This document shows positions 2-17,553 of a stretch of 64,000 nucleotides of DNA, one piece after another; the stretch's first letter is position 1, and every line of letters begins with the position of its first letter. This DNA is from Streptomonospora nanhaiensis (GTDB taxonomy: Bacteria > Actinomycetota > Actinomycetes > Streptosporangiales > Streptosporangiaceae): the NCBI RefSeq assembly GCF_026642255.1, contig NZ_CP113264.1:434001-498000 (forward strand). The letters are read 5' to 3'. The notes below the pieces were generated by a model. The model made no database searches, was not told the origin of the DNA, and worked only from the letters and a program-made list of their open reading frames with translations. The translations under genes and the position numbers were made by a program.

Positions 2-541
2 CAGGCGCGCGGGTATCCGACGAACAGCCTTCCCGACCGGGCCGAGACCGTCGCCGCGGGCAACGCGGCCAAGGGGGGCCTGCGGGCGCACGACGCCGCA
101 GAGCCACTGGGGCCGCACCTGGTCCTCGGAGACTCCCGCCTCCCCGTGACCAGCGCCCAGCTGGGACGGGCCCAGCGTGAGAACGGGAGTGCCGTCCTGC
201 GCCCCGACGAGGCGCGTGCCCTCGGGGCCCAGAACGGGGAGGGCGAGGCCCGAGCCAGCGGTCGCGGGGCCGGGAGTCACGGGGCCCGCCACCCGGAGGC
301 CCGGGTGGCCGAGCGGCGCGAGAGCCGGGACAAGCGCGACCGTGTCGCGCGAACCCGCGCGCAGGGCGTCCTCTACAGGCGGGGCGAGGCGGCCCGCGCC
401 GCGGCCGGCGACTCACCGAGCCTTCCCACGAACCGGGCCCAGCAGAAACGCGCGGCGGGGAGGCTGACCGCCGTGCACGAGGGACAGCGCAGGCGCCACT
501 CCGTCACCACCACGCACACCCGGACCACCACGGCCAGGTGA
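2..541 (+). CDS. 3' end of an Arg-rich hydrophilic protein (partial)
   Basis: An open frame runs in from the left edge and stops at 539-541. Codon third positions are almost all G or C from the first bases onward, so the coding frame continues from outside and the GTG at 146 is probably internal. The visible 179 residues are hydrophilic and rich in Arg, Ala and Glu, with a basic low-complexity tail ending in repeated Thr. There is no membrane segment and no catalytic motif I recognise. It lies 83 bp before a DUF4913 gene, which in actinobacterial conjugative elements often follows transfer genes. A relaxase or coupling-protein tail is possible, but nothing in the visible part proves it. Confidence 0.5.
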   Translation, partial: QARGYPTNSLPDRAETVAAGNAAKGGLRAHDAAEPLGPHLVLGDSRLPVTSAQLGRAQRENGSAVLRPDEARALGAQNGEGEARASGRGAGSHGARHPEARVAERRESRDKRDRVARTRAQGVLYRRGEAARAAAGDSPSLPTNRAQQKRAAGRLTAVHEGQRRRHSVTTTHTRTTTAR

Positions 542-624: not shown

Positions 625-1119
625 ATGAGCACCGAACCCCACGACCACGCAGCGGACCTCCTGGAGGAGGAGTCCCGGGATGCCGCGCCTGTCGGCGGGG
701 GCCTCACCAGCGAGGCCCCGAACGTCACCTCGGCCGTCGCCGGGGTGGACGACGGAGCGGAGGACGACGGCGAGCCCGCGCCGGAACCCGTGTTCAAGAA
801 CGTCGAGGAGTTCGTGCGGCTGCGCTTCCTGCCGGTCTACGTCCGCCCCGAGGGCGGACAGTTCCGCTGGTGCAAGGAGTGGTGGCGGCACGCCGAGGCG
901 GTGTCGCGCTTCCAGGCGCTGTGGCACGCGTGGGAGGTCCTGCGGTGGGAGGCCGGCACCGGGATGGCGGTCTGGTACCGGGACCACCTCGACTTCCAGA
1001 TGAGCATCATCCTCGGGGACAACGGGCCGTTCCGAGAGTGCACCTCGCGCCGCCACCAGGACCCGCGCCCCCTCCCCGCCGACCCGTCCCCCGAGGGCTG
1101 GTTCGAGGACGAGTGGTGA
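625..1119 (+). CDS. DUF4913 domain protein
   Basis: A 164-aa protein. Residues 1-55 are acidic and disordered. Residues 57-150 match the DUF4913 pattern: a 'vEEFVRLRFLPVY' start, a Trp-rich core (FRWCKEWWRHAEAV, then LWHAWEVLRWEAG), WYRDHLDF and GPFREC near the end. Function is unknown. The family is common in integrative conjugative elements and plasmids of actinobacteria, close to VirD4/TraG-type genes, which makes the left end of this window look like part of a mobile element. The ATG at 625 begins the acidic leader; no strong Shine-Dalgarno is visible. The family call is from memory of the pattern. Confidence 0.75.
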   Translation: MSTEPHDHAADLLEEESRDAAPVGGGLTSEAPNVTSAVAGVDDGAEDDGEPAPEPVFKNVEEFVRLRFLPVYVRPEGGQFRWCKEWWRHAEAVSRFQALWHAWEVLRWEAGTGMAVWYRDHLDFQMSIILGDNGPFRECTSRRHQDPRPLPADPSPEGWFEDEW

Positions 1120-1304: not shown

Positions 1305-1796
1305 GTGCTGGTGGACCCCTTGCAAGCGGCTTTGACGATCGGCAGCGCCTTCATCGGCGCGACCGGCCTGCTCATCGCCTCGGTAGCGCTCGGCGCCCGC
1401 TGGGAGGGGAGGGGCGAGGCGGATCAACAGCTCGCGGAGGCCAAGCGCTACGACCTAGCGGTTTCCCAGGACCCCCGTGTGGTCGAGGCGACGGCCCTCC
1501 AGGCGGCTCTGGACGCCTACCGCTCCGCGGACATCCCCGTGAGCAAGGAGCTCGACGCGGCCGCGCAGGGGGTCAGCCGTTCCGAGAACGAGGCCGCCAC
1601 CCGTGAGAAGAGGGTCCAGGCGCACTACGAGAAACTGGGCGATGCCGAGCGGGCCGTCGGGCGGCTCGTGCTGCTCGACCGGCCCGGGGGTGTGCGCGGG
1701 GCCCTGCGGAGCGTGCGCCGCGGAGTGGCGAGGCCGTTCCGGGGTGGGCAGCGCCTCGCTCCCCCGAAGACGGCGGGCCGGGGGGCGGGCGTGTGA
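1305..1796 (+). CDS. Membrane-anchored coiled-coil protein, cassette copy 1 gene 1
   Basis: A 163-aa protein with a GTG start preceded by GGGAGG. One N-terminal membrane segment spans about residues 8-30. A charged, Glu/Gln/Arg-rich helical region (35-125) is likely coiled coil, and the tail is basic (GVRGALRSVRRGVARPF). It is the first of four genes that overlap by 4, 13 and 23 bp, so they form one operon. No known domain is recognised. It has the same position and general layout as the gene at 5484-6062 in the opposing cassette, but sequence similarity between these two is weak by eye. GC is about 70%. Confidence 0.65.
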   Translation: MLVDPLQAALTIGSAFIGATGLLIASVALGARWEGRGEADQQLAEAKRYDLAVSQDPRVVEATALQAALDAYRSADIPVSKELDAAAQGVSRSENEAATREKRVQAHYEKLGDAERAVGRLVLLDRPGGVRGALRSVRRGVARPFRGGQRLAPPKTAGRGAGV

Positions 1797-2197
1797 CCGC
1801 CGCCGCGGTACTCGCCGTCGCGGCCGCGCTCCTGGCCGCCGCGCGCCTGTTCCTGAACGGACGGCACCCGGATCGCGGCGTGCACTCGCCGGGAGGGACT
1901 GCCGAGGAGGCGCTGACGGCCGATGCCGGGCGTTCGCTGGAACGTGCGGCGGAGTTCGGTGCGTTCGAAGGGCACCTCTGGGCCTGGCGCGACTTATTGT
2001 CCGACACCGCAGCGGCGTTGTCGGGCGCGGACACGGAGCCACCGGGGGGCGGTACGGCCGAGGCCGAGGATGACCGTCGGCGTGAACCCGACTCCGCCGA
2101 GCAACGGCTCCGGAGCGCGCTCTCCCCCCTCGCGGAGAGCCGGGAGGCCGGGACGGCAGGTGTGGATTCCGGGGGGAGCGGCCCGTGGAGTGGCTGA
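1793..2197 (+). CDS. Small membrane-anchored protein, cassette copy 1 gene 2
   Basis: A 134-aa protein that starts at a GTG overlapping the previous stop (GTGA), so it is translationally coupled. An Ala/Leu-rich signal anchor occupies residues 2-20. The rest is a soluble domain with a helical stretch around 40-75 (EEALTADAGRSLERAAEFG, then HLWAWRDLL) and a disordered Gly/Glu-rich tail. No family is recognised. It corresponds in order and size to the 139-aa gene at 5013-5432. That counterpart also has a C-terminal membrane segment, which this protein lacks. Confidence 0.6.
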   Translation: MTAAAVLAVAAALLAAARLFLNGRHPDRGVHSPGGTAEEALTADAGRSLERAAEFGAFEGHLWAWRDLLSDTAAALSGADTEPPGGGTAEAEDDRRREPDSAEQRLRSALSPLAESREAGTAGVDSGGSGPWSG

Positions 2198-2976
2198 TCG
2201 CGGCGGGGACGGTCCTCGGGTCCGTCCTCACGACCGCTGCCGTCGTGTTCCGCAGGAGCCTGGAGAAGGCACGTCGGGGCGGACAGGCAAGAGTCGCGCA
2301 CGTCGAGGCGGAGGCGGAGCGTATCCGGGCCGCCGCCAACCGGAGGCTGCGCGAGGCCGAGACCCTGCTGCCCCGGCTTCGTGTCGAGGTCGAGAGCGCT
2401 CGGAGGGCGGGGACGCTGCACCGGACCGCGGACGACCTCCGGGCGCGGCAGTCGGCGGCGGAGGAGAGGGCCCGGCGCGCGGCGCAGTCCTTCAACACCG
2501 CCTTGGACCGGGAGGGAGAACTCCTCCGCGCCCTCCGGGAGACCGGTCTGCTCCGCGACACCGCCGCGGGCCCGGTGGTGGACGCCTCCCGCTCTCCCGC
2601 CGCGGCGCGGGCGGAGGCCGCGGTCGTGGGGCGTCACCTCCAGGAACTGGAGTGGTACCGGGTCAACGGGCACGAGGACGGGATCAGCGGCCCCCTGCGT
2701 GCCCCGGCGTTCACGGAGGAACGGGCCACGGCTCTCCGGGAGGGCCTGGACCGTGCCGGACGCGTCGACGAGACGTGGATCCGCGAGCGCACCCGGGGAG
2801 CGGTGTCCGGTCGGAACTTGCTCACCGACAGCCCGAGGAGCATGGCCGAGGCGGTGCGGGGGCGCAAGGGCCTGCAGCGCCGCACCGGCGCGGCAGGGGA
2901 CCGTGGGGCCGACGCCCGGCGGGAAGCGGTGCGACGAGAGGAAGGGAACGGTCATGGGCTCGCTGGAAGCGGGTGA
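2185..2976 (+). CDS. Membrane-anchored long coiled-coil protein, cassette copy 1 gene 3
   Basis: A 263-aa protein with a GTG start inside the end of the previous gene (13-bp overlap). A membrane segment occupies residues 3-22. A long highly charged helix follows (25-118) and almost certainly forms a coiled coil. After it comes a compact region with TGLL at 120-123, VVDASRSPAAARAEAA at 131-146, and a second helical part near 190-225. These two blocks align in order with KAGII and with INTSLDSTEEQRAAAS in the protein at 4087-5007, which is the evidence that the two cassettes share ancestry. No catalytic motif is seen. Confidence 0.65.
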   Translation: MEWLIAAGTVLGSVLTTAAVVFRRSLEKARRGGQARVAHVEAEAERIRAAANRRLREAETLLPRLRVEVESARRAGTLHRTADDLRARQSAAEERARRAAQSFNTALDREGELLRALRETGLLRDTAAGPVVDASRSPAAARAEAAVVGRHLQELEWYRVNGHEDGISGPLRAPAFTEERATALREGLDRAGRVDETWIRERTRGAVSGRNLLTDSPRSMAEAVRGRKGLQRRTGAAGDRGADARREAVRREEGNGHGLAGSG

Positions 2977-3466
2977 CGGGGTCGTCCTGATGGTCGCTGT
3001 CGCCGTGGTGGCGGTGTGCGCGTGGGTCGGCGGGGAGTCGGTCCGACGGTTGCTGGGCCACCGGTTCGACCGCTCGGCGGCTCTGCTCGGCACGGAGGAG
3101 CAGGAGGAGGTTCTCGCACTCCGGCGGGGAGTGCTGGAGCGCCGGTACTCCCTGGTGGAAGCTGCCTGGGGCGGCGTACGCGGTGGTGCCCGTCCGGGAG
3201 CGCCCGTCCCGGGCGGCGCACGGACGGCAGCGGACGGCGACCTCCCCGACCCTGTGGCGGTCGTCGCGGCCCTGGACCGCGACCTCGCGCACCTGGACGC
3301 AGAGGAGGCGCGGCGGGTCGAGATGGTGAGTGCCGCGTTCACCGGCCGTCGGGAGCGCTCGGACCGGGCGCGGGCCTCGGCGCTGCGGCTGGATGTCGCG
3401 TGCGCGGGAGCCGCCGTGCTCCTTGCGGGGGTGGCCGTGGGCGGGGCCGTCGCGGTGCTGCTCTGA
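2954..3466 (+). CDS. Two-TM hairpin coiled-coil protein, cassette copy 1 gene 4
   Basis: A 170-aa protein. The ATG at 2954 lies 23 bp inside the previous gene and follows GAGAGGAAGGG. A membrane segment at about 9-27 and a second one at the extreme C terminus (145-170) would put the charged middle on one side of the membrane. RRLLGHRFD at 31-39 aligns with RRVVEYRLD at 19-27 of the protein at 3628-4062. The following helix (EEQEEVLALRRGVLERR against EDRERTRVALVGLRRMD) and the terminal membrane segment also align. This is the clearest homologous pair between the two opposing cassettes. Function is unknown. Confidence 0.65.
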   Translation: MGSLEAGDGVVLMVAVAVVAVCAWVGGESVRRLLGHRFDRSAALLGTEEQEEVLALRRGVLERRYSLVEAAWGGVRGGARPGAPVPGGARTAADGDLPDPVAVVAALDRDLAHLDAEEARRVEMVSAAFTGRRERSDRARASALRLDVACAGAAVLLAGVAVGGAVAVLL

Positions 3467-3627
3467 CGGTCCGGTGCCGACTTCCTCCGCCGCTCCGGGC
3501 GAGAGGGCTGCGGGGTGTGAGGTCCTGTTGGGGCAGATTCTGGACCAGGGGCTCCGGCTGCGGCCTCTGCCCCCGACCCGGCCCTGATCGAGCACCGCGA
3601 GGCGGGGCCCGGTCGCAGCCTGGCCGG

Positions 3628-4062
3628 TCAGAGGATCGTGGAGATACCGAGGATCGGGCTGACGACCATCAGTACCGCCCCGATGACGAGGAACAAGACG
3701 TCCGCCACCAGCACGAACGGCCTCACACGTTCCCGAAGGGGCAGAGTGGCCAGGACGGTGTCGGCGGCCCGTTCCGCCTCCGCGAGGCTGTCGGAGAGTT
3801 CCGCCTCGATCCGATTCACCCTTTCCTCGGCCGTCGGCCGTTCTGGAGCCGCGGTGGCGTCGTTCCGGCCCGTCCCAGGAGCGTTCCACTCGTCCAGCAG
3901 GGCGTCCATCCGACGGAGACCGACCAACGCGACGCGAGTGCGCTCGCGATCCTCTGAGAGGCGGGCCACGATATAAGGGGCGTCCAGTCTGTACTCCACG
4001 ACTCTGCGGAACGAGGTGGTGAAGACGAACGCACCGGCGAGGAAGCAGAGAATGAGAACCAT
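3628..4062 (-). CDS. Two-TM hairpin coiled-coil protein, cassette copy 2 gene 4
   Basis: A 144-aa protein with an ATG start and an AGGAAC-type ribosome site. An N-terminal membrane segment (1-17) is followed by RRVVEYRLD (19-27), a charged helical middle (35-110) and a C-terminal hydrophobic segment (114-141). Layout and the RR-hydrophobic-RxD block match the + strand protein at 2954-3466. It is the last gene of the reverse-strand cassette, 24 bp after the preceding stop. The two cassettes therefore end facing each other across 161 bp. GC is intermediate here, higher than in the three upstream genes. No known function. Confidence 0.65.
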   Translation of the reverse strand: MVLILCFLAGAFVFTTSFRRVVEYRLDAPYIVARLSEDRERTRVALVGLRRMDALLDEWNAPGTGRNDATAAPERPTAEERVNRIEAELSDSLAEAERAADTVLATLPLRERVRPFVLVADVLFLVIGAVLMVVSPILGISTIL

Positions 4063-4086
4063 GGTGGTCCGTTCCTGTCTGGGACT

Positions 4087-5007
4087 TCAGGTCTGGCCGT
4101 TGGTCGGCCTGGTCTTGGCAGGGGAAGCCGGTCGACCCCGGGCGGGCCTCTCCGATTCCTGAGCCGATCGGGATTGCACGGCCTCGGAGACCCCTATGGC
4201 GGGAGCCAGATAAGAGGGAACGGATGACGGGAGTGCTTGCTGAGGATCGACCGCAAGGGCCGTAATTTTGCCCTCCTTCTTGGTCGCTTCGGGGGTATTT
4301 TGGTTCGGGGCCAGCTGGAAAGGAAGCGTGATGCCGTGCTTCTCGGCGATATCTTCCAATTGTTTTGGTCGATCTGTCAGTGCTTTTTTCAGCATGGCTG
4401 AGACGAAGGTGTTCATATCGTTTACTGTGGCGATGAATATCGCGAGGATTGGTTTATTTGCGCCGACCAGGTCTGCGTTCGGCCCCTCGCTGTGCTGCTT
4501 GATGACGATTCCGGCCTCGGCAAGTTTCCTGAGTTCATTGTCGGCCGGGAGGGTGCTTTCTCCGGAATTGCTCAGACGTGTTTTTTCGGCGATCCACCTA
4601 CTGGCGGCCGCTCGCTGCTCCTCCGTGGAGTCCAAGCTCGTGTTTATGATGAAATTTGTGGAGATGATCCCGGCTTTCTCGTAGCGTTGGATCTCGGGAT
4701 CCAAAGTGCTTTGTGTTCGCTTGATTTCATTTGCATGCAATTTCCCTTTTTGGCTTGAGAGGAACTGGTCGGCGATGTTTTTCTTGTTGGTGGAGGCCAG
4801 TACGTGAGGCTCATTCTTGAGTTCCGCTATGTCAGTCCGGAGCGTGGCCGCCCTCAGGGGGCTCATCTTGGCCGTGAGGAGATTATCTCTTTCCTTGACC
4901 TCTGCCCTCCTGCGGGCGTTTATCACTTGGACTGAAATAGCCCAAATGAGTAGGGAAATCGCCACGGTCAGGAGGGTGGTGACCAGGATCAAAACCATGG
5001 GTTGCAT
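4087..5007 (-). CDS. Membrane-anchored coiled-coil protein, cassette copy 2 gene 3
   Basis: A 306-aa protein. A membrane helix at 4-28 is followed by a charged helical region (30-105). Then come KAGII at 111-115, NTSLDSTEEQRAAAS near 122-136, a repeat-like LAEAGIV and a second helical stretch (MNTFVSAMLKKALTDRPKQL). The C terminus is Pro/Ser/Arg-rich and disordered. These blocks occur in the same order as in the 263-aa protein at 2185-2976. Sampled lines are only about 42-50% GC, with AT-ending codons that are very unlike the rest of the window, so this gene is probably a recent acquisition. No enzymatic motif is seen. Confidence 0.65.
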   Translation of the reverse strand: MQPMVLILVTTLLTVAISLLIWAISVQVINARRRAEVKERDNLLTAKMSPLRAATLRTDIAELKNEPHVLASTNKKNIADQFLSSQKGKLHANEIKRTQSTLDPEIQRYEKAGIISTNFIINTSLDSTEEQRAAASRWIAEKTRLSNSGESTLPADNELRKLAEAGIVIKQHSEGPNADLVGANKPILAIFIATVNDMNTFVSAMLKKALTDRPKQLEDIAEKHGITLPFQLAPNQNTPEATKKEGKITALAVDPQQALPSSVPSYLAPAIGVSEAVQSRSAQESERPARGRPASPAKTRPTNGQT

Positions 5008-5012
5008 CCTTA

Positions 5013-5432
5013 CTACAATCCGAGGGCGGCGGAAACGGTGATGGCGAGAATGAGAAATGGCCAGACTGCGGTTTCTCTGTATTCCCTCTTCGCGGGGGGC
5101 GTCATGGTCGCGAAATCAGCTATTGCAGCCTTGGATTCAACTGTTTTCGACTTCTTGGACCTCTCGGCCTCCGATGGTCCGTGTCGAATGGATTCAGATT
5201 CTCCTTCAGGATTGTGTGAGCGCTCGGGCCGAGTGGTTGCTTCCCTCTCTCGGAGGAGGGACCTGCAACGCAGGAGGGCCTGGAGAACTTCGTCGGAATC
5301 AGGTTCCTTCTCAAGACGATCTCGACTTGGCAGATAGATTCCGAATCGCATGGCGAAGAAGTGGATGGCGCCCTGAATTGCCAGGGTTGAAATCGCGACA
5401 GCAGGGATAATTATTTCCGCACCGAAGTCCAT
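5013..5432 (-). CDS. Two-TM small protein, cassette copy 2 gene 2
   Basis: A 139-aa protein. Hydrophobic segments lie at about 7-28 and at the C terminus (122-139), flanking a charged, Ser/Glu/Arg-rich middle with the helix DEVLQALLRCRSLLRERE. It ends 5 bp before the next gene, so the two are almost certainly co-transcribed. Order and size match the 134-aa gene at 1793-2197. The N-terminal halves share only a loose 'R-hydrophobic...R-D-R...L' pattern, so homology is not shown by sequence alone. Base composition is AT-rich like its neighbours at 4087-5007 and 5484-6062. Confidence 0.6.
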   Translation of the reverse strand: MDFGAEIIIPAVAISTLAIQGAIHFFAMRFGIYLPSRDRLEKEPDSDEVLQALLRCRSLLREREATTRPERSHNPEGESESIRHGPSEAERSKKSKTVESKAAIADFATMTPPAKREYRETAVWPFLILAITVSAALGL

Positions 5433-5483
5433 GAGGTCTTTTCTTGTAGAAGTGTGGGTGCCCTTCTCGTGCCTTGGGGGAGA

Positions 5484-6062
5484 TCAGGGCCTTCTTCCTC
5501 CTCTTTGGAGGGGGTATCTTCTATTTCCCCGAGTCACTCTCGTTGTATTCGGATTTCGGGGGGCCCTTGTTGCGGGTGGAGTCGTGGTTTCCTTATTCCC
5601 GCCAATGGGTTCCCACCCCAAGCCCTTTGAGATCTTGTCTATGTCGCCGAGGGCTTTGGTGTATCTTTTGGAAGTGGTTTCGATGAGTGATTCTTCAATC
5701 TTGGCATTATCGGCGTGGAGCTTAATTTCTGCAGCCTCTCCCCGAAGTGGTTTGAGGCCGTTCTCCAGTTCGGCCTTCTCGATATCGAGTTTATGCAGCT
5801 TGCTCTTGGGGACGATGCCGATATCTTTTATTTTTGTTTTTGTTCCGGGCCAGAACCTATCGGCATCCTTTGGTTTCAGAACGTCTTGCAGGGCGCGGTC
5901 GGTGAGAGTGGTCGCCGTGTCGATCATCGAGGTAATGGCGAACCTGAGAGTGAGTGCGGTTCCTCCAAAAACGGTATGCGACCAGACGATGAGCTGTAAA
6001 GCGATGGGAAGTGCCCCGAGAAACCATCCGCCCCCCACGTGGGTCCTCGCATTCTTGGTCAA
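5484..6062 (-). CDS. Membrane-anchored coiled-coil protein, cassette copy 2 gene 1
   Basis: The frame is open to 6311, but the first 80 or so codons look non-coding. I chose a TTG at 6060-6062 (about 192 aa), which begins just before the hydrophobic region WFLGALPIALQLIVW. No good ribosome site supports this start, so it is uncertain. A double or long membrane segment (10-45) is followed by a Lys/Glu-rich helical domain typical of a coiled coil and then a basic disordered tail. It is the first gene of the reverse-strand cassette and the positional counterpart of 1305-1796. GC is low. No domain is recognised. Confidence 0.5.
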   Translation of the reverse strand: MTKNARTHVGGGWFLGALPIALQLIVWSHTVFGGTALTLRFAITSMIDTATTLTDRALQDVLKPKDADRFWPGTKTKIKDIGIVPKSKLHKLDIEKAELENGLKPLRGEAAEIKLHADNAKIEESLIETTSKRYTKALGDIDKISKGLGWEPIGGNKETTTPPATRAPRNPNTTRVTRGNRRYPLQRGGRRP

Positions 6063-6965: not shown

Positions 6966-9317
6966 TCAGCCGCCCGCCGCGCCCCGGTCGGTGCAGACCT
7001 CCTCCGAGGGGGCCATGACGTCCGTGGACCGGACGGCGACGACCCGGAAGCAGTACTCGACCTCGGGGTTGAGGCCGCTGACATCGACGGTGGAGGCCCC
7101 GGCCGGGACGTTCGCCATCGACGTGGTGCGGGCCCCGACAGGACCGCCGACCACGAAGTGCGGGGCGGAGCCGCCGGTGTTGTCCGTCCAGGACAGCGAG
7201 ACGCCCACGAGGTCGTCGGCGACCTCCACCCCCGTCGGGGCGATGGCCGACGGGTCCGCCTCCTCCGCGGGCCCGTCCCCTCCCGCGGCGCCCCCGGGAA
7301 CCTCCGGAGCGGCCCCTCCGCCCCCGGCCGGAGCAGGCGTCTCCGCGGAGGGGGCGCCGGAGTCCCGGCCGGTGATCAGGAGCGCGCCGACGGCCACGAC
7401 CGTGACCAGGACGAGGCCGATCAGGACGGGGAGGAGCACCGCAGTGCGGTGGCGCTCCGGCTGAGAGGGCGGGGCCCACGCCGTGGCGTTCGCGGGCGCG
7501 TGCCGCTCGTCGGTCCAGGCGGAGCCGGCGTCGGCGGTCCGGGGTGACGTCCGGGGAGCGCTCGGGGCGCTCCACGTCCGCTCCGGGGGCGCGGACCGGT
7601 TGGTCAGCGGCTCCGCCCCGCGTGTGATGGCCTCGAAGGAGAAGGGAGAGGGGGCGGTCCTCTCCGCCGACGGCGGACGGCTGCCCGGGTGCGGGTCCCC
7701 GCTGGCCTCCCCGACGCGTCCGGGGCCGAGGACCGGGGTGGGAGCGGAAAGGGCGGACGAGTCGAGGAGGACGGACGCCGGGCCCCCGGTCCCCGCGTCC
7801 GAGGACGGCTCGTCGCGGTCGGGAACCGGTGGCGAGGAGGTGTGGGACGGGGGCCCGGTCGTGGAGGACGCGACCGGTTCAGGGGGGACGGTCGGGGCCG
7901 CCTCGTGCACCTCGGAACCGTCCGGGAGCTCGTCGCCCGGGTCGGCCGCCGCAACCGGCTCTCCGGTCTCCCCCGGTCCGGCCGCCGGGGCCGGGGCCGC
8001 CCCGTGCGTCCCGGAGGGGCTGTCCGCCGCGAGGGGTGCGTCCGCCTCGGGTCCGCTGTCCGCCGACGACGGTTCCCCGGCGCCGTCCGGGGCCTCGCCG
8101 TCCCCGTGTTCGCCCAGGACGTCGTCGACCTCGTACCAGGCGCCGTCCTCGTCATCGTCGTCGTACCAGGCGCCGTCGGTGTACCCGTCGTCGTCCGGGC
8201 CGTGGCCGGTGTCCTCGTCGGGTTCGACGGTCTCCTCGGTGAAGACCTCCGACCCGTTCGCCGTCCCTTCCGCACCGGACTCCGGTTCGGTCGTCCCGGT
8301 CGCGGTCTCCGGTTCGACCTCTTCCGCCCCGGCGTCGTCCGAGGCCGGGTCCGCGCTCGCCCCGGTGCCCGCCTCTGCGGGAAGCGCTGCCGCCGCGAGG
8401 GGGACGGACTCGACCGCCGACGCCTCGGGCCCGTCGTCCGCGGACCCCGCAGCGGCGGCGGCCCGGTCCAGGTCCGCGTCGGGGATGCCCTGCTCGGCCG
8501 GCCCCGGCTCCAGAGCCTCTCCGAAGTCGGCGGCTGTCGGCGTCCGCTGCCCGGGATCGGTCGCCAGCGCCCGGAGGAGGGCGGCGCGCAGCCGGTCCGG
8601 GACGTCCTCGCGGTCCATCTCAGGCGGCGTGCCCGACAGCAGCCGGGAGCGGTACTCCCGCGGGCCGGCCTCCTCCTGCCCCGGACCGGCGAACGGGGCG
8701 TGCCCGGCCAGGAGGGTCCAGAGGGTCGAGGCCAGCCGGTACACGTCCGACGCGGGGGTGGGGCGGGAACCGGCGACCTCCTCGGGAGGGGCGTGGTCCA
8801 GGGTCGCCCGCGTGTAGTACACGGGCGGGAACGGGTGGTCCAGGGGCAGGGTCGAGCCGAAGTCCGTCAGGGTCGGCCCGGACGCCCCGCGGAGGATGTT
8901 GGCCGGGGTCACCGCGTGGTGGAGCAGGCCGAGCTCGTGCATGCCCTCCAGAGCCCGCGCCACGGTCCGGCCGACGGTGAGGACCTCGTCCACCGCGAGC
9001 GGCCCGTCCTCGGCCAGGGCGCGGGCGTAGTCGCCCTCACCGCGGTACTCCGTCACGGCGAACGCACGGCCCGCCCCGGTGACTCCCGAGGACAGGAGCG
9101 GCTGGACACCGGGCACGGGGGTGAGCCGGTCCCAGAGCCCGGCCTCGTCGGGCCCGGCCGTGCCGGGACCCCGCCCCAGCAGCTTGACCACCACCGGGGC
9201 ACGGTCGGACTCGCGTTCGGCGCGGTAGAGGAGTGCGCTCCTGCCGCAGTACAGCGTCGTCAGGTCGCGCATGCCCGGGAACGGCGGCGGTGGTTCGCGG
9301 CGGCTGGTCCTACTCAT
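6966..9317 (-). CDS. Ser/Thr protein kinase-like membrane protein, probable pseudokinase with FN3-type ectodomain
   Basis: A 783-aa protein starting at ATG 9317, behind a perfect AGGAGGG 6 bp upstream; the longer frame to 9389 is not needed. The kinase fold occupies about 15-280. Lys45 in VVVK matches the ATP-anchoring Lys and DFG is present (152-154). The glycine loop is degenerate, and the catalytic HRD is His-His-Ala (133-135), so the essential Asp is missing. A long acidic Pro/Ser/Glu-rich linker leads to one membrane helix (RTAVLLPVLIGLVLVTVVAV). The outside part carries a fibronectin-III-like domain (VSLSWTDNTGG ... NPEVEYCFRVVAVR). A role as a sensor or scaffold rather than an active kinase is inferred. 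Confidence 0.8.
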   Translation of the reverse strand: MSRTSRREPPPPFPGMRDLTTLYCGRSALLYRAERESDRAPVVVKLLGRGPGTAGPDEAGLWDRLTPVPGVQPLLSSGVTGAGRAFAVTEYRGEGDYARALAEDGPLAVDEVLTVGRTVARALEGMHELGLLHHAVTPANILRGASGPTLTDFGSTLPLDHPFPPVYYTRATLDHAPPEEVAGSRPTPASDVYRLASTLWTLLAGHAPFAGPGQEEAGPREYRSRLLSGTPPEMDREDVPDRLRAALLRALATDPGQRTPTAADFGEALEPGPAEQGIPDADLDRAAAAAGSADDGPEASAVESVPLAAAALPAEAGTGASADPASDDAGAEEVEPETATGTTEPESGAEGTANGSEVFTEETVEPDEDTGHGPDDDGYTDGAWYDDDDEDGAWYEVDDVLGEHGDGEAPDGAGEPSSADSGPEADAPLAADSPSGTHGAAPAPAAGPGETGEPVAAADPGDELPDGSEVHEAAPTVPPEPVASSTTGPPSHTSSPPVPDRDEPSSDAGTGGPASVLLDSSALSAPTPVLGPGRVGEASGDPHPGSRPPSAERTAPSPFSFEAITRGAEPLTNRSAPPERTWSAPSAPRTSPRTADAGSAWTDERHAPANATAWAPPSQPERHRTAVLLPVLIGLVLVTVVAVGALLITGRDSGAPSAETPAPAGGGGAAPEVPGGAAGGDGPAEEADPSAIAPTGVEVADDLVGVSLSWTDNTGGSAPHFVVGGPVGARTTSMANVPAGASTVDVSGLNPEVEYCFRVVAVRSTDVMAPSEEVCTDRGAAGG

Positions 9318-9578
9318 GGCGTCCCTCCTGGTGGAGCCCGTGACCTCCGGTCTCCGCCCCGGCGTCACGGGGACCTGGGGAGGGGGCACGGCGGAACACC
9401 ACCGGCCCGTCCGACGGGAGCAGGGAGAGGGGGCGGGACGGGGCGAGGACGCGCCCTGTGAGCCCCGGTGGTGCGTGGGTGAGCCTAGTGCATGGCCTGT
9501 TCACCCGGAAGCGAGCGTACGCGGGCCTGGGCGGGGCGTTTCCCCGCCGGGCCCGCGCCGTTCAGGCCCGACGGGCGT

Positions 9579-12266: not shown

Positions 12267-13097
12267 TCAGAGCTCCACGTCCTCGCCGAACCACGGTTCG
12301 ACGATCCCGTCCCAGGTGCCGTCGTTGAGGGCGATGTTCAGCCACTGGTCGACGTAGTGCTTCAGGACCTCGTCGCCGAGGGGCAGCATGAAGGCCTTCT
12401 CGAAGTAGTCGAAGGGCTCGTCCGGGTGGACCGCGCACAGTTCCTCGTGCTCGTTGGCCGCCCAGAGCGTCTCGGACGCGTCGGTGGTCATGACGTCGGC
12501 GTTGCCCGCGATGATCTCCTCGAAGACGGTGTTGTTGTCGTGGCGGATGAGCTCCCCCTCGGGGTAGTGCTCCTCGGCGAAGACCTCGTTGGTCCCCCCG
12601 CTGGGCATGATCGAGCGGACGCCCGGCTGGTTGATCTGCTCGATCGTCCGGTAGTCGTCGACGTTCTCGCACAGGGTGATGGGCGTCTTGCCGTCCTCCA
12701 TGAGCGCCGCGGAGAAGTACACCTGCCGGGCGCGTTCTGTGCTGATCGAGATGCCGCCCGCGGCGATGTCGCAGGAGCTGAGGAAGTCGCCCATCAGGTC
12801 GTCCCAGCTGGTCCGGACCCACTCGACCTCCACGCCCATGTCGTCGGCGAGATCGCGTGCCATGTCGACGTCGATCCCGGTGAAATCGTCCGTCGCGGGG
12901 TCGAGGTAGGTGAAGGGCCGGTAGTCGCCGGTGGTGCACACGCGCAGCGTGCCGCTCTCCAGGATCTCGTCGAGCCGGCTACCGGAGACCTGTTCCCCGT
13001 CGGGGGCGTTCCCGGCGCCGCCGGTGTCGGCGGCGGAGCATCCCGTGGCGAGTGCGACGGCCGCGAGGGCGGTGAGGGTGGTGGCGCGGGTCTTCAC
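12267..13097 (-). CDS. Amino-acid-type solute-binding lipoprotein, cyclohexadienyl dehydratase-like
   Basis: A 276-aa protein from GTG 13097, with GGAGGAGA just upstream. The signal peptide ends in the lipobox LATGC, so it is a lipoprotein. The mature part is a family-3 periplasmic-binding fold: GTLRVCTTGDYRPFTY, FTGIDVDMARDLA, CDIAAGGISISTERAR and a C-terminal EPWFGEDVEL. The T-x-G-D-Y-x-P and D-I-A-x-G-G-I/T-x-T blocks are those of PheC-type secreted cyclohexadienyl/arogenate dehydratases. Either dehydratase activity or ligand binding is possible. No permease or ATPase gene is adjacent, so an orphan enzyme or sensor is as likely as a transporter part. Confidence 0.75.
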   Translation of the reverse strand: MKTRATTLTALAAVALATGCSAADTGGAGNAPDGEQVSGSRLDEILESGTLRVCTTGDYRPFTYLDPATDDFTGIDVDMARDLADDMGVEVEWVRTSWDDLMGDFLSSCDIAAGGISISTERARQVYFSAALMEDGKTPITLCENVDDYRTIEQINQPGVRSIMPSGGTNEVFAEEHYPEGELIRHDNNTVFEEIIAGNADVMTTDASETLWAANEHEELCAVHPDEPFDYFEKAFMLPLGDEVLKHYVDQWLNIALNDGTWDGIVEPWFGEDVEL

Positions 13098-13405: not shown

Positions 13406-15331
13406 ATGGACGTCCCTGAGAGCGGGGCCGCCGGAACCGGCGCCCCGAACCTGGCCGAAGGGTTTCCCGACGCCACCCCACAAAGGTGGCGGGAACTCGT
13501 CGCGGGGGTGCTGCGCAAGAGCGGTGTCCCCGAGGAGAAGCTCGCCGACGCACCCGAGTCGGCGCTGGCCACGCACACCTACGACGGGTTCGACATCGAG
13601 CCCCTCTACACCTCGGAGCCCCCGGCCGCGGACCCGGGCTTCCCGGGACTGCCCCCCTTCACCCGCGGCTACCGGCCCGGCGGCAGTGGGCCCGACGGCT
13701 GGGACATCCGCGCCCGCCACACCGACGCCGACCCGGCCGTCCTCCGCCGCCGGCTGCACGCCGACCTCATGAACGGTGTCGGCTCGCTGTGGATCGCCGT
13801 CGGCGGCGCGGGCCTGCCGCCCCCGGCGCTCGGGGAGGCCCTCGCCGACGTCCACCTCGACCTCGCGCCCGTCGTCCTGGAACCCGGCGCCGACCACGCC
13901 GACGCCGCGGCGGCGCTGCTCGGCGCGCACGCGGACGCGGGGGTGCCCGACGGCCGGATCGTCTCCCACCTCGGTATCGACCCCCTGACCGTGGCGGCGC
14001 GCGCGGGCGAGCGGCCCGACGTCATGGACCCGGCCCGCCTCGCCGCCGAACTCTCCCGGGAGCGTCCCGGCCTGGGCCTGTTCGTCGCGGACGGCACCCT
14101 CGTCCACAACGCGGGCGGCTCGGACGCGCAGGAGCTGGGGTTCGCGATCGCCGCGGGCACCGCCTACCTGCGGGCCCTGCACGCGGCCGGGCTGGACGTC
14201 GCCGAGGCGGCCTCCCGGATCGGCTTCCGCCTGGCTGCGAACGCCGACCAGTTCAGCGTCATCGCCAAGCTGAGGGCGGTCCGCGGCATGTGGAACCAGG
14301 TGCTCGCCGCCAGCGGGGTGCCCGCCGGCCGGCGCTCCATGAGCCTGCACGCCGCCACGTCCGCGGCGATGATGACCCGCCGCGACGCGCACGTGAACAT
14401 GCTGCGCACCACCGTGGCGTGTTTCGCGGCCGGGGTCGGCGGCGCGGACGCGGTCACCGTCGCCCCGTTCGACTCGGCCGTGGGCCTGCCGGACGACTTC
14501 GCCCGCCGCATCGCCCGCAACACCCAGTCGCTCCTGATCGAGGAGTCGCACCTGGCGCGGGTGATCGACCCGGCCGGGGGCTCGTTCTACGTGGAGGCCC
14601 TGACCGGAGACCTGTACCGGACGGGCTGGGAGTTCTTCCAGGAGCTCGAGGCGGCGGGCGGCGCGGCCGAGGCCGTCGCGGACGGCTCGCTGCGCGAGCG
14701 CGTCGACCAGGTGTGGGAGCGCCGCCGCCGCGACCTCGCGCACCGGAGGGCGCCGCTGACAGGGGTCAGCGAGTACCCCGACCCGGCCGAGAAGCGCCTG
14801 GTCCGCGAGCCCGACCCGGCCGCGGTGGCCGGGACCTGGTTCCCGGTCCGCCGGTACGCCGCGGACTTCGAGGCGCTGCGGGACCGCGGCGATGCCCAGG
14901 AGGCGAGGACGGGGACGCGTCCGACGGCGTTCCTGGCCACGCTCGGGCCCGTCGCGGCGCACACGGCCCGCGCGTCGTTCACCGCGAACCTCCTCGCCGC
15001 GGGCGGCGTGGGGGTGCATGAACCCGGACCGCTGGCCGACGCCGACGCCGCCGCCGGGGCGTTCGCCGCCTCCGGGTGCAGGGTCGCGGTGATCTGCTCC
15101 TCGGACAGGGTGTACGGCGAGCAGGCCGAGGCGGTCGCGCGGGCGCTGAAGGGCGCCGGGGCCCGCAGGGTGCTGCTCGCGGGACCGCCGCGCGACGCCT
15201 ACCGCGAGGCCGGGGTGGACGCCTTCGCCCACCGGGGCTGCGACGCGGTCGCCCTGCTCACGGACCTGGTCGACGTCCTGGCCACCGAGCCGCCCGTTCC
15301 ACCCGCGAAAGCCCAGGGGGCGCACGCATGA
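13406..15331 (+). CDS. mutA: Methylmalonyl-CoA mutase small subunit
   Basis: A 641-aa protein. The N-terminal part forms the TIM barrel (IEPLYT near 65-70, [73 protein letters not shown]). The C-terminal cobalamin-fold domain lacks the DxHxxG motif of the large subunit, as expected for the non-catalytic beta chain. It partners with MutB in the heterodimer that interconverts succinyl-CoA and (R)-methylmalonyl-CoA in propionate metabolism and polyketide precursor supply. Start chosen at ATG 13406. The stop overlaps the mutB start (ATGA), so the two subunits are translationally coupled. Confidence 0.95.
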
Positions 15332-17553
15332 TCCCCGACTTCTCCGCCGTCGCCCCGGAACCGTCCGGCGCCGTCCCCACCGCTCCCGCCGCCTGGCGGG
15401 AGGCCGTCGAGTCCGCCACCGGCAAGGCCGCGGACGCCCTGGAGTGGGAGACCCCCGAGGGCATCGCCGTCAAACCCCTGTACACCTCCGCGGACCGCGC
15501 GGGCCTGGAGTTCGTGGACGGCCTCCCCGGCATCCCGCCGTACCTGCGCGGCCCGTATCCGACCATGTACGTCAACCAGCCCTGGACCATCCGCCAGTAC
15601 GCCGGCTTCTCCACCGCCCAGGAGTCCAACGCCTTCTACCGGCGCAACCTCGCCGCCGGGCAGAAGGGGCTCTCCGTCGCCTTCGACCTGGCCACCCACC
15701 GCGGCTACGACTCCGACCACCCCCGGGTGGCGGGCGACGTCGGCATGGCGGGCGTGGCCATCGACTCCATCTACGACATGCGCCAGCTGTTCGACGGCAT
15801 CCCGTTGGACCGGATGAGCGTGTCCATGACGATGAACGGGGCGGTGCTGCCCGTCCTGGCGCTGTACATCGTCGCCGCGGAGGAGCAGGGCGTCCCCCCG
15901 GAGAAGCTGTCCGGGACCATCCAGAACGACATCCTCAAGGAGTTCATGGTCCGCAACACCTACATCTACCCGCCGCAGCCCTCGATGCGGATCATCTCCG
16001 ACATCTTCGCGTTCACGTCGCAGCGGATGCCGCGCTTCAACTCCATCTCCATCTCCGGCTACCACATGCAGGAGGCCGGGGCCACGGCCGACCTGGAACT
16101 GGCGTACACCCTCGCGGACGGCGTCGAGTACATCCGCGCCGGCCGGAGGTCCGGGCTGGACGTGGACGCCTTCGCCCCGCGCCTCTCGTTCTTCTGGGCG
16201 ATCGGCATGAACTTCTTCATGGAGGTCGCCAAGCTCCGCGCCGCGCGCCTGCTGTGGGCGCGCCTGGTCAGGGACCTCGGCGCGACCGGGGACAAGTCGC
16301 TGAGCCTGCGCACCCACTCCCAGACCTCGGGCTGGTCGCTCACCGCCCAGGACGTGTTCAACAACGTGGCCCGCACGTGCGTGGAGGCGATGGCCGCCAC
16401 CCAGGGGCACACCCAGTCGCTGCACACCAACGCCCTGGACGAGGCCCTGGCCCTGCCCACGGACTTCTCCGCGCGGATCGCCCGCAACACCCAGCTGCTG
16501 CTCCAGCAGGAGTCCGGCACCACGCGGGTCGTGGACCCGTGGGGCGGCAGCTACTACGTCGAACGCCTCACCCAGGAGCTGGCGGCGAAGGCGTGGGCGC
16601 ACATCCGCGAGGTGGAGGGCGCGGGCGGCATGGCCGCCGCGATCGACGCCGGTCTGCCCAAGATGCGCATCGAGGAGGCCGCCGCACGCACCCAGGCGCG
16701 CATCGACTCGGGCCGCCAGCCCGTGATCGGCGTCAACAAGTACCGCCCCGACACGGCCGACGAGATCGACGTCCTCAAGGTCGACAACTCCAGCGTGCGC
16801 GCCCAGCAGCTGGACAAGCTGCGCCGCCTGCGCGAGGAGCGGGACGAGGACGGGGTGCGCCGCGCCCTGGCCGCCCTCACGGAGGCGGCGGGACGCGAGT
16901 CCAGGGCGGACGAGTCCCTGACGAACAACCTCCTGGCCGCGGCCGTGGACGCGGCACGCGCCAAGGCCACCGTCGGCGAGATCTCCGACGCCATGGAGAA
17001 GGTCTTCGACCGCCACTCGGGGCAGATCCGTACGATTCAGGGTGTGTACAGGAACGAGGCCGCCGGCAGCGCGGACGCGGCCGGGCTCATGGAGCGCGTG
17101 AGCCGGAGGGTGGACGAGTTCACGGAGGCGGAGGGCCGCCGCCCCCGGATCCTGGTCGCCAAGATGGGGCAGGACGGCCACGACCGCGGCCAGAAGGTCA
17201 TCGCGACCGCGTTCGCCGACCTGGGCTTCGACGTGGACGTCGGTCCGCTGTTCCAGACCCCGGCCGAGGTCGCCGCCCAGGCCGCGGAGGCCGACGTGCA
17301 CGTGGTCGGCGTGTCCTCGCTGGCGGCGGGGCACCTGACCCTGGTGCCGGCCCTGCGCGAGGAGCTGGCCGCCCTGGAGCGGGAGGACATCATGGTCGTG
17401 GTCGGCGGGGTCGTCCCCCCGCAGGACTTCTCGGCCCTGCGCGAGGCGGGCGCGGCGGCGATCTTCCCCCCGGGGACGGTCATCGCGGAGGCCGCCGTCG
17501 ACCTGCTCGACCAGTTGGAGGAGCGGCTGGGGGGCCACGGGGAGGAGCTGTAG
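15328..17553 (+). CDS. mutB: Methylmalonyl-CoA mutase large (catalytic) subunit
   Basis: A 741-aa protein of normal length. The barrel carries [19 protein letters not shown] (substrate/radical Tyr region), [28 protein letters not shown] and [14 protein letters not shown]. The B12 domain near 600-735 has DGHDRG with the cobalt-ligating His, [10 protein letters not shown] and VVGGVVPP. It catalyses the adenosylcobalamin-dependent rearrangement of methylmalonyl-CoA and succinyl-CoA. It is coupled to mutA by a 4-bp overlap and followed 62 bp later by the chaperone gene meaB, the standard actinobacterial arrangement. Confidence 0.97.

Follow-up and report, generated by a model that had tools for sequence, protein, structure and literature searches.

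The stretch of DNA analyzed here (the window) comprises 64,000 nucleotides at 434-498 kb of the 7.27 Mb genome of Streptomonospora nanhaiensis. At positions 1305-6062 it carries eight open reading frames arranged as two four-gene operons, cassette A on the forward strand and cassette B on the reverse strand, which converge tail to tail. An earlier note, made from the letters alone, had described two such cassettes, and all eight frames were recovered with the positions and lengths it gave. We regard the two cassettes as diverged versions of one four-gene membrane module, and that module as an undescribed family. Its features in the window are as follows.

1305..1796, forward strand: A1, 163 residues; N-terminal membrane segment, helical body and basic tail; homologues at 9 other loci of the family
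1793..2197, forward strand: A2, 134 residues; N-terminal membrane segment and helical body; its link to the B-type gene 2 runs through relatives of the second B type (Br, see below)
2185..2976, forward strand: A3, 263 residues; membrane segment, long helices, predicted beta-hairpin at 123-132, further helices and a basic tail
2954..3466, forward strand: A4, 170 residues; membrane segments at N- and C-terminus with a predicted cytoplasmic helical body between them; homologue of B4
3467..3627, no strand: intergenic gap between the convergent operons, in which no terminator-like site was detected
3628..4062, reverse strand: B4, 144 residues; membrane segments at N- and C-terminus; homologue of A4 and of the Br-type gene 4
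4087..5007, reverse strand: B3, 306 residues; membrane segment, long helices and basic tail; relatives recognizable in genomes G155 and G043
5013..5432, reverse strand: B2, 139 residues; membrane segments at both N- and C-terminus
5484..6062, reverse strand: B1, 192 residues; hydrophobic N-terminal segment and basic tail; better start at GTG 6038

The genes of cassette A (1305-3466) overlap and those of cassette B (6062-3628) are separated by gaps of 5-51 bases, so each cassette looks like one operon. The GTG at 6038 is the likelier start of B1, giving 184 residues, on the strength of a GAGGA motif 5 nucleotides upstream and of alignment with the B1 of G155; similarly, A1 may start at the GTG at 1311. 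A hydrophobic segment begins every one of the eight proteins and both gene 4 products carry a second at the C-terminus, as the earlier note had it; it had missed that B2 has a C-terminal segment too (residues 121-139). The G+C content of cassette B is 53-65%, that of cassette A 74-76%, and that of the surrounding region about 74%.

Cassettes of this family divide into at least five sequence types, which mix between the two genomic slots described below. We label them A, Bw (the window-type B), Br (the other B type), C, D, and E. The four-gene order and the membrane layout are common to types A, Bw, Br, C, and E, and to D as far as it has been read. Across the family, gene 4 has both membrane segments in all 23 sequences, and the N-terminal segment is present in 96-100% of genes 1-4 at a looser cut-off.

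Gene 4 carries the case for kinship. In profile-profile comparison, A4 matches the Bw gene 4 with a probability of 97.2% (E-value 3.4e-11), and at this level homology between A and B, which had been proposed from a pairwise alignment, is confirmed. Matches of this gene among A, Bw, and Br have E-values from 2e-10 to 6e-16, above reversed-profile, cross-gene, and shuffled controls, and gene 4 joins A, Bw, Br, D, and E through seven pairs at 91-98.6% probability. Of 253 profile pairs, the top nine all link the same gene position, and the best reversed-profile control reached 38%. Gene 2 appears to be homologous as well, indirectly and through Br-type relatives (A-Br 78%, Bw-Br 49%, direct A-Bw 9%). 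A shuffle test with cross-gene controls ranks the genes in a similar way, with mean Z-scores of 5.8-12.7 for gene 4, 2.3-4.4 for gene 2, about 0.8 for gene 3, and 0.3-0.9 for gene 1. In addition, a kinship between genes 2 and 4 within the Br type is possible (73% profile probability).

Genes 1 and 3 correspond between A and B by position and layout alone: neither gave a significant profile match, and the shuffle test agrees. Among the 253 pairs, gene 1 profiles are linked between no types at all, and gene 3 profiles link D with E only (66%). The earlier note had aligned gene 3 in two blocks; this alignment is not significant by profile, though it falls within the region of A3 for which a helix/beta-hairpin/helix order is predicted. 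A Br-type B3 is predicted to run helix/two strands/helix, and the common order is suggestive only, as a possible sign of kinship. The AlphaFold2 models of A3 and of the Br-type B3 have mean confidence scores (predicted local distance difference test) of 58 and 65, respectively, and neither found a fold match in the PDB. The same note had matched genes 1 and 2 by position only, which stands for gene 1 and has to be corrected for gene 2; its larger proposal, of two diverged versions of one module, is borne out by gene-4 homology together with the conserved layout.

It could be argued that the resemblance of A to B reflects convergence of small membrane coiled-coil proteins instead of homology: coiled coils easily draw spurious matches, and genes 1 and 3 yield no significant profile match between the two. 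Against this, the gene-4 matches among A, Bw, and Br lie clear of these controls, and the nine best pairs all unite the same gene position. We consider convergence very improbable.

The module sits beside a chromosomal type IV secretion-like locus, most of which lies upstream of the window. Its genes encode an NlpC/P60 protein, pilin-like proteins, a VirB6-like protein, and VirB4-like and VirD4-like ATPases, followed by fast-evolving proteins and a DUF4913 protein. In Pfam, gene c5 matched T4SS-DNA_transf and TraG-D_C, gene c3 matched TraG/AAA_10 weakly, and there were a weak T4SS_pilin match and an NlpC/P60 match. With predicted VirB4-type and VirD4-type ATPases, a pilin-like protein, and a cell-wall hydrolase, the locus can be classed as type IV secretion-like. 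Two of its genes and a neighboring kinase gene fall in the window.

2..541, forward strand: C-terminal part of a 567-residue locus protein with no family assigned; the remainder lies upstream of the window
625..1119, forward strand: DUF4913 protein (PF16259, E-value 8e-36), the last of the secretion locus and followed by slot 1
6966..9389, reverse strand: Ser/Thr kinase that has a single membrane segment and weakly matches fn3; slot 2 follows on its downstream side

We call the stretch after DUF4913 slot 1, and the stretch on the opposite strand, downstream of the transmembrane Ser/Thr kinase, slot 2. On the far side of the secretion locus (left flank of loci L027, L031, and L032) there is a second transmembrane kinase with a TgpA/transglutaminase protein; the secretion locus is thus flanked by two related kinases.

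Upstream of the window, two tandem genes (L011:14099-14749 and 14828-15481; G000:C1:430099-431481, G000 being the window genome) are about half identical over their N-terminal 140 residues and nearly identical, in DNA too, over the C-terminal 65 or so. Recent gene conversion or a shared constant tail is possible, and they are possible secretion substrates. A more distant secretion locus has a 1288-residue protein with a Zeta_toxin match (L022:8514-12380) immediately after VirD4 and a DUF4913-like gene.

The paired layout recurs. Two cassettes on opposite strands, tail to tail, were found at 11 loci in five GTDB genera: the window, G157, G179, G165, G177, G010, G073 (A1 and A3 only), G081 (Streptomonospora mangrovi), G129, G196, and G043. 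This is 11 of the 12 loci that carry cassette A or B. With the single and stand-alone copies, it shows the gene order in paired and single form, which the earlier note had proposed to look for; the suspected linkage to DUF4913 and VirD4 was likewise found, slot 1 following DUF4913 at the end of the secretion locus in relatives. The same note's idea of a rival or complementary pair does not survive in obligate form, and we rejected it: types mix (A+Bw in the window, A+Br in most, D+Bw in G043), either slot can stand filled alone, and further copies exist at a distance from the locus. In G155 only slot 2 is filled, and its B cassette ends about 25 bases from DUF4913; in G046 and G056 only slot 1 is, by types C and E. 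Slot 1 of G063 holds yet another type.

At eight loci the cassettes are separated by a divergent gene pair, encoding NAD synthase and a Na:alanine symporter; they abut in the window, G196, and G043. This pair was considered as a part of the system and set aside, being absent there in the window, G155, G196, and G043 and occurring without the locus in G151. The window genome gave no match at an E-value of 1e-60 or below to the glutamine-dependent NAD synthase seen in four other congeners searched. As for irregular copies, the frames of A3 in G177 (L016 9692-10551) and of B3 in G157 (L013 3590-4476) are apparently broken by frameshifts, through decay or sequencing error, and the tail of B1 in G043 (L051, reverse complement 12453-13025) contains three tandem copies of GQEASKSSS.

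Relative to the VirB4 of its host locus the module is strongly diverged. The genus group of the window genome includes Nocardiopsis sp. CNR-923 and N85; in five congeners, VirB4 is 91-94% identical to that of the window and the A proteins are 44-71% identical, whereas most B proteins score no higher than shuffled sequences, the B4 of G155 (46%) being the clear exception. Many cassettes are low in G+C although their host genomes have 74%, and up to three diverged versions occur in one genome. The gene-4 tree requires, on well supported branches, four or more changes of slot-1 label, and the E-type, C-type, and G063-type copies of slot 1 cluster with stand-alone copies (ultrafast bootstrap 100).

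Among the neighbors of these stand-alone cassettes are an aldolase gene (G043), an ABC transporter gene (G010), and other unrelated genes. G170 has a full C-type cassette beside a uracil-DNA glycosylase gene and G153 a C-type gene 4 in a similar place, and neither genome has a VirB4 match at an E-value of 1e-40 or below. Because of the stand-alone copies, those in these two genomes included, the cassettes appear to be independent modules and not secretion parts. Plasmids do carry related VirB4 genes in actinobacteria (identity up to 67%), and no cassette was found on plasmids with A1 and B3 as queries, nor in IMG/VR with A1 as the only query.

The strongest rival account is that the cassettes serve the type IV secretion-like machine as accessory parts open to exchange, forming a cytoplasmic platform that selects substrates or acts in regulation and whose variety is driven by variable substrates. 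They occur in 16 of 20 genomes with a VirB4 match at an E-value of 1e-250 or below (15 by gene 4 at an E-value of 1e-5 or below, plus G046 by anatomy) and in 2 of 280 others, so co-occurrence with one VirB4 clade is strong; a weak partial match in G013 was discarded as a cassette once its neighborhood had been read. In addition, the position after DUF4913 is fixed, the neighboring c7, c19, and tandem soluble pair likewise evolve fast, and in general character the basic C-termini are like type IV substrate signals. However, a component of type IV secretion should always be encoded with a secretion ATPase, and the C-type cassettes of G170 and G153 occur in genomes with no VirB4 match at an E-value of 1e-40 or below. 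Other copies lie at a distance from the locus, and four secretion loci of the same VirB4 clade (G042, G087, G108, and G133) have no cassette; the slots of G045 are also empty of one. On balance this role is on the unlikely side.

Where the proteins face bears on what they could do. In 90 of 93 proteins, Lys and Arg are more numerous behind the first membrane segment than ahead of it (mean counts near 3.3 and 0.2, respectively), and around the C-terminal segment of gene 4 the means are 4.4 before and 0.1 after. From this pattern and the positive-inside rule, we infer that the N-termini are outside and the protein bodies in the cytoplasm. The tails of genes 1 and 3 are basic, with mean net charges of +6.5 and +6.0; the average over 27 other genes of the window is -0.6.

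Surface exclusion and transfer spread in a conjugative element were among the roles first suggested. The adjoining VirB4, VirD4, and pilin-like genes, the high allelic variety, and the plasmid-borne VirB4 relatives all speak for these roles or for entry exclusion. Surface exclusion would call for exposed bodies, and by the charge pattern the same 90 of 93 proteins are predicted to point inward; no relaxase was recognized by Pfam among the larger host-locus genes (neither the small genes nor the remainder of the genome entered this relaxase scan); copies persist where no such VirB4 was found; and searches with A1 and B3 found none on plasmids. The proposal is weakened accordingly, and we now rate it quite improbable. 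Conjugative exclusion systems are likewise small variable membrane proteins beside type IV secretion genes, but the cassettes are not bound to a secretion locus, are predicted to face inward, and have four genes in a fixed order.

Membrane-anchored cytoplasmic coiled coils would also suit structural or signaling scaffolds of the hyphal membrane (in polarity, septation, or sporulation) tuned by the adjacent kinases, slot 2 being downstream of a transmembrane Ser/Thr kinase at the loci read that far. The VirB4-containing cluster cmdABCDEF (SCO4126-4131) affects sporulation in Streptomyces coelicolor (PMC2782261). Nevertheless, a patchy presence in one genus, extremely diverged sequences, low G+C, and several types in a single genome would be unusual for core cell biology, and a scaffold role is decidedly unlikely. 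The cmdABCDEF and SLP2 transfer clusters of Streptomyces, chromosomal or plasmid-borne, have membrane-protein genes around a VirB4-like ATPase and so resemble the host locus, not the cassettes; by its description, cmdABCDEF is six co-transcribed genes with no four-gene modules (PMC2782261).

As the earlier note had supposed, neither the domain libraries nor the literature searched yielded a described system of the same four-gene anatomy. The eight proteins matched no convincing family in Pfam, NCBIfam, PHROGs, PADLOC, or PDB sequence searches. In PADLOC-DB they matched no model, the neighboring kinase alone matching kinase models, and AbiEii nucleotidyltransferase and AbiEi antitoxin domains had no Pfam or PADLOC match in them. 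Conservons (cvn operons) of Streptomyces are also four-gene operons, with several diverged copies per actinomycete genome, and in this the cassettes are like them; the kinase-like protein, roadblock, DUF742, and GTPase domains of conservons were not recognized in the cassettes by Pfam.

What fills slot 1 elsewhere offers a lead. In G108 (Streptomonospora sp. PA3), G042, and G133, of the same VirB4 clade and lacking a cassette, AbiEi/AbiEii and a GT4-conflict glycosyltransferase come after the secretion genes, behind DUF4913 in G108 and G133 (loci L038 and L056); in G042 (L054), DUF4913 was not called. These genes fill the same slot as the cassettes, but their products are soluble and have no recognized sequence relation to the cassettes. 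Their presence suggests that the slot-1 position is a cargo hotspot, and gives indirect support to the defense option that the earlier note had listed.

The reading we favor, tentatively and at somewhat short of an even chance, is that the module is a membrane-anchored, cytoplasm-facing system of conflict or self-protection. Each cassette would then be a single copy of a self-contained four-gene module. The N-terminal helix would anchor each protein, leaving a coiled-coil-rich helical body in the cytoplasm, and the gene 4 product would form a cytoplasmic hairpin between its two membrane segments. The four proteins may assemble into a membrane-anchored complex at the inner membrane face, which would guard the cell in conflict with incoming elements or neighbors. 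Nucleic acid, or some other acidic partner, could be what the basic tails of genes 1 and 3 bind, the variable bodies would confer specificity, and cassettes would be swapped as blocks at the two slots of the secretion-like locus and at other chromosomal places. The anatomy, the gene-4 homology, the conservation of the slots, the mixing of types, and the stand-alone copies are observed directly, whereas the topology, the assembly into a complex, and the protective role are inferences. That they make up a class of intracellular conflict systems, membrane-anchored, built of several proteins, and so far undescribed, with exchangeable four-gene allelic cassettes in two slots and standing alone, up to three versions per genome, is a more doubtful proposition, although a possible one.

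Several observations weigh against a protective role. No enzymatic, toxin, or defense domain was recognized in any cassette protein, and no stand-alone cassette was observed within a known defense island. One or two events may account for all the AbiE occupants, which makes location weak evidence. The 16 of 20 against 2 of 280 distribution leaves a link to the secretion locus open, and the empty plasmid and IMG/VR searches count on the same side.

What can be offered to those who study actinomycetes is a recurrent gene module without a recognized domain, at a hotspot that holds a toxin-antitoxin system and a conflict glycosyltransferase in other species. Should it work for the secretion-like locus, it would illustrate how a chromosomal machine of this kind exchanges its partners. 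Should it prove protective, it would add to the broad class of defense systems a family of complexes with a new anatomy, acting at the inner membrane face in actinomycetes, and the alleles that occur in nature, in sets A, Bw, Br, C, D, and E, are at hand for tests of specificity.

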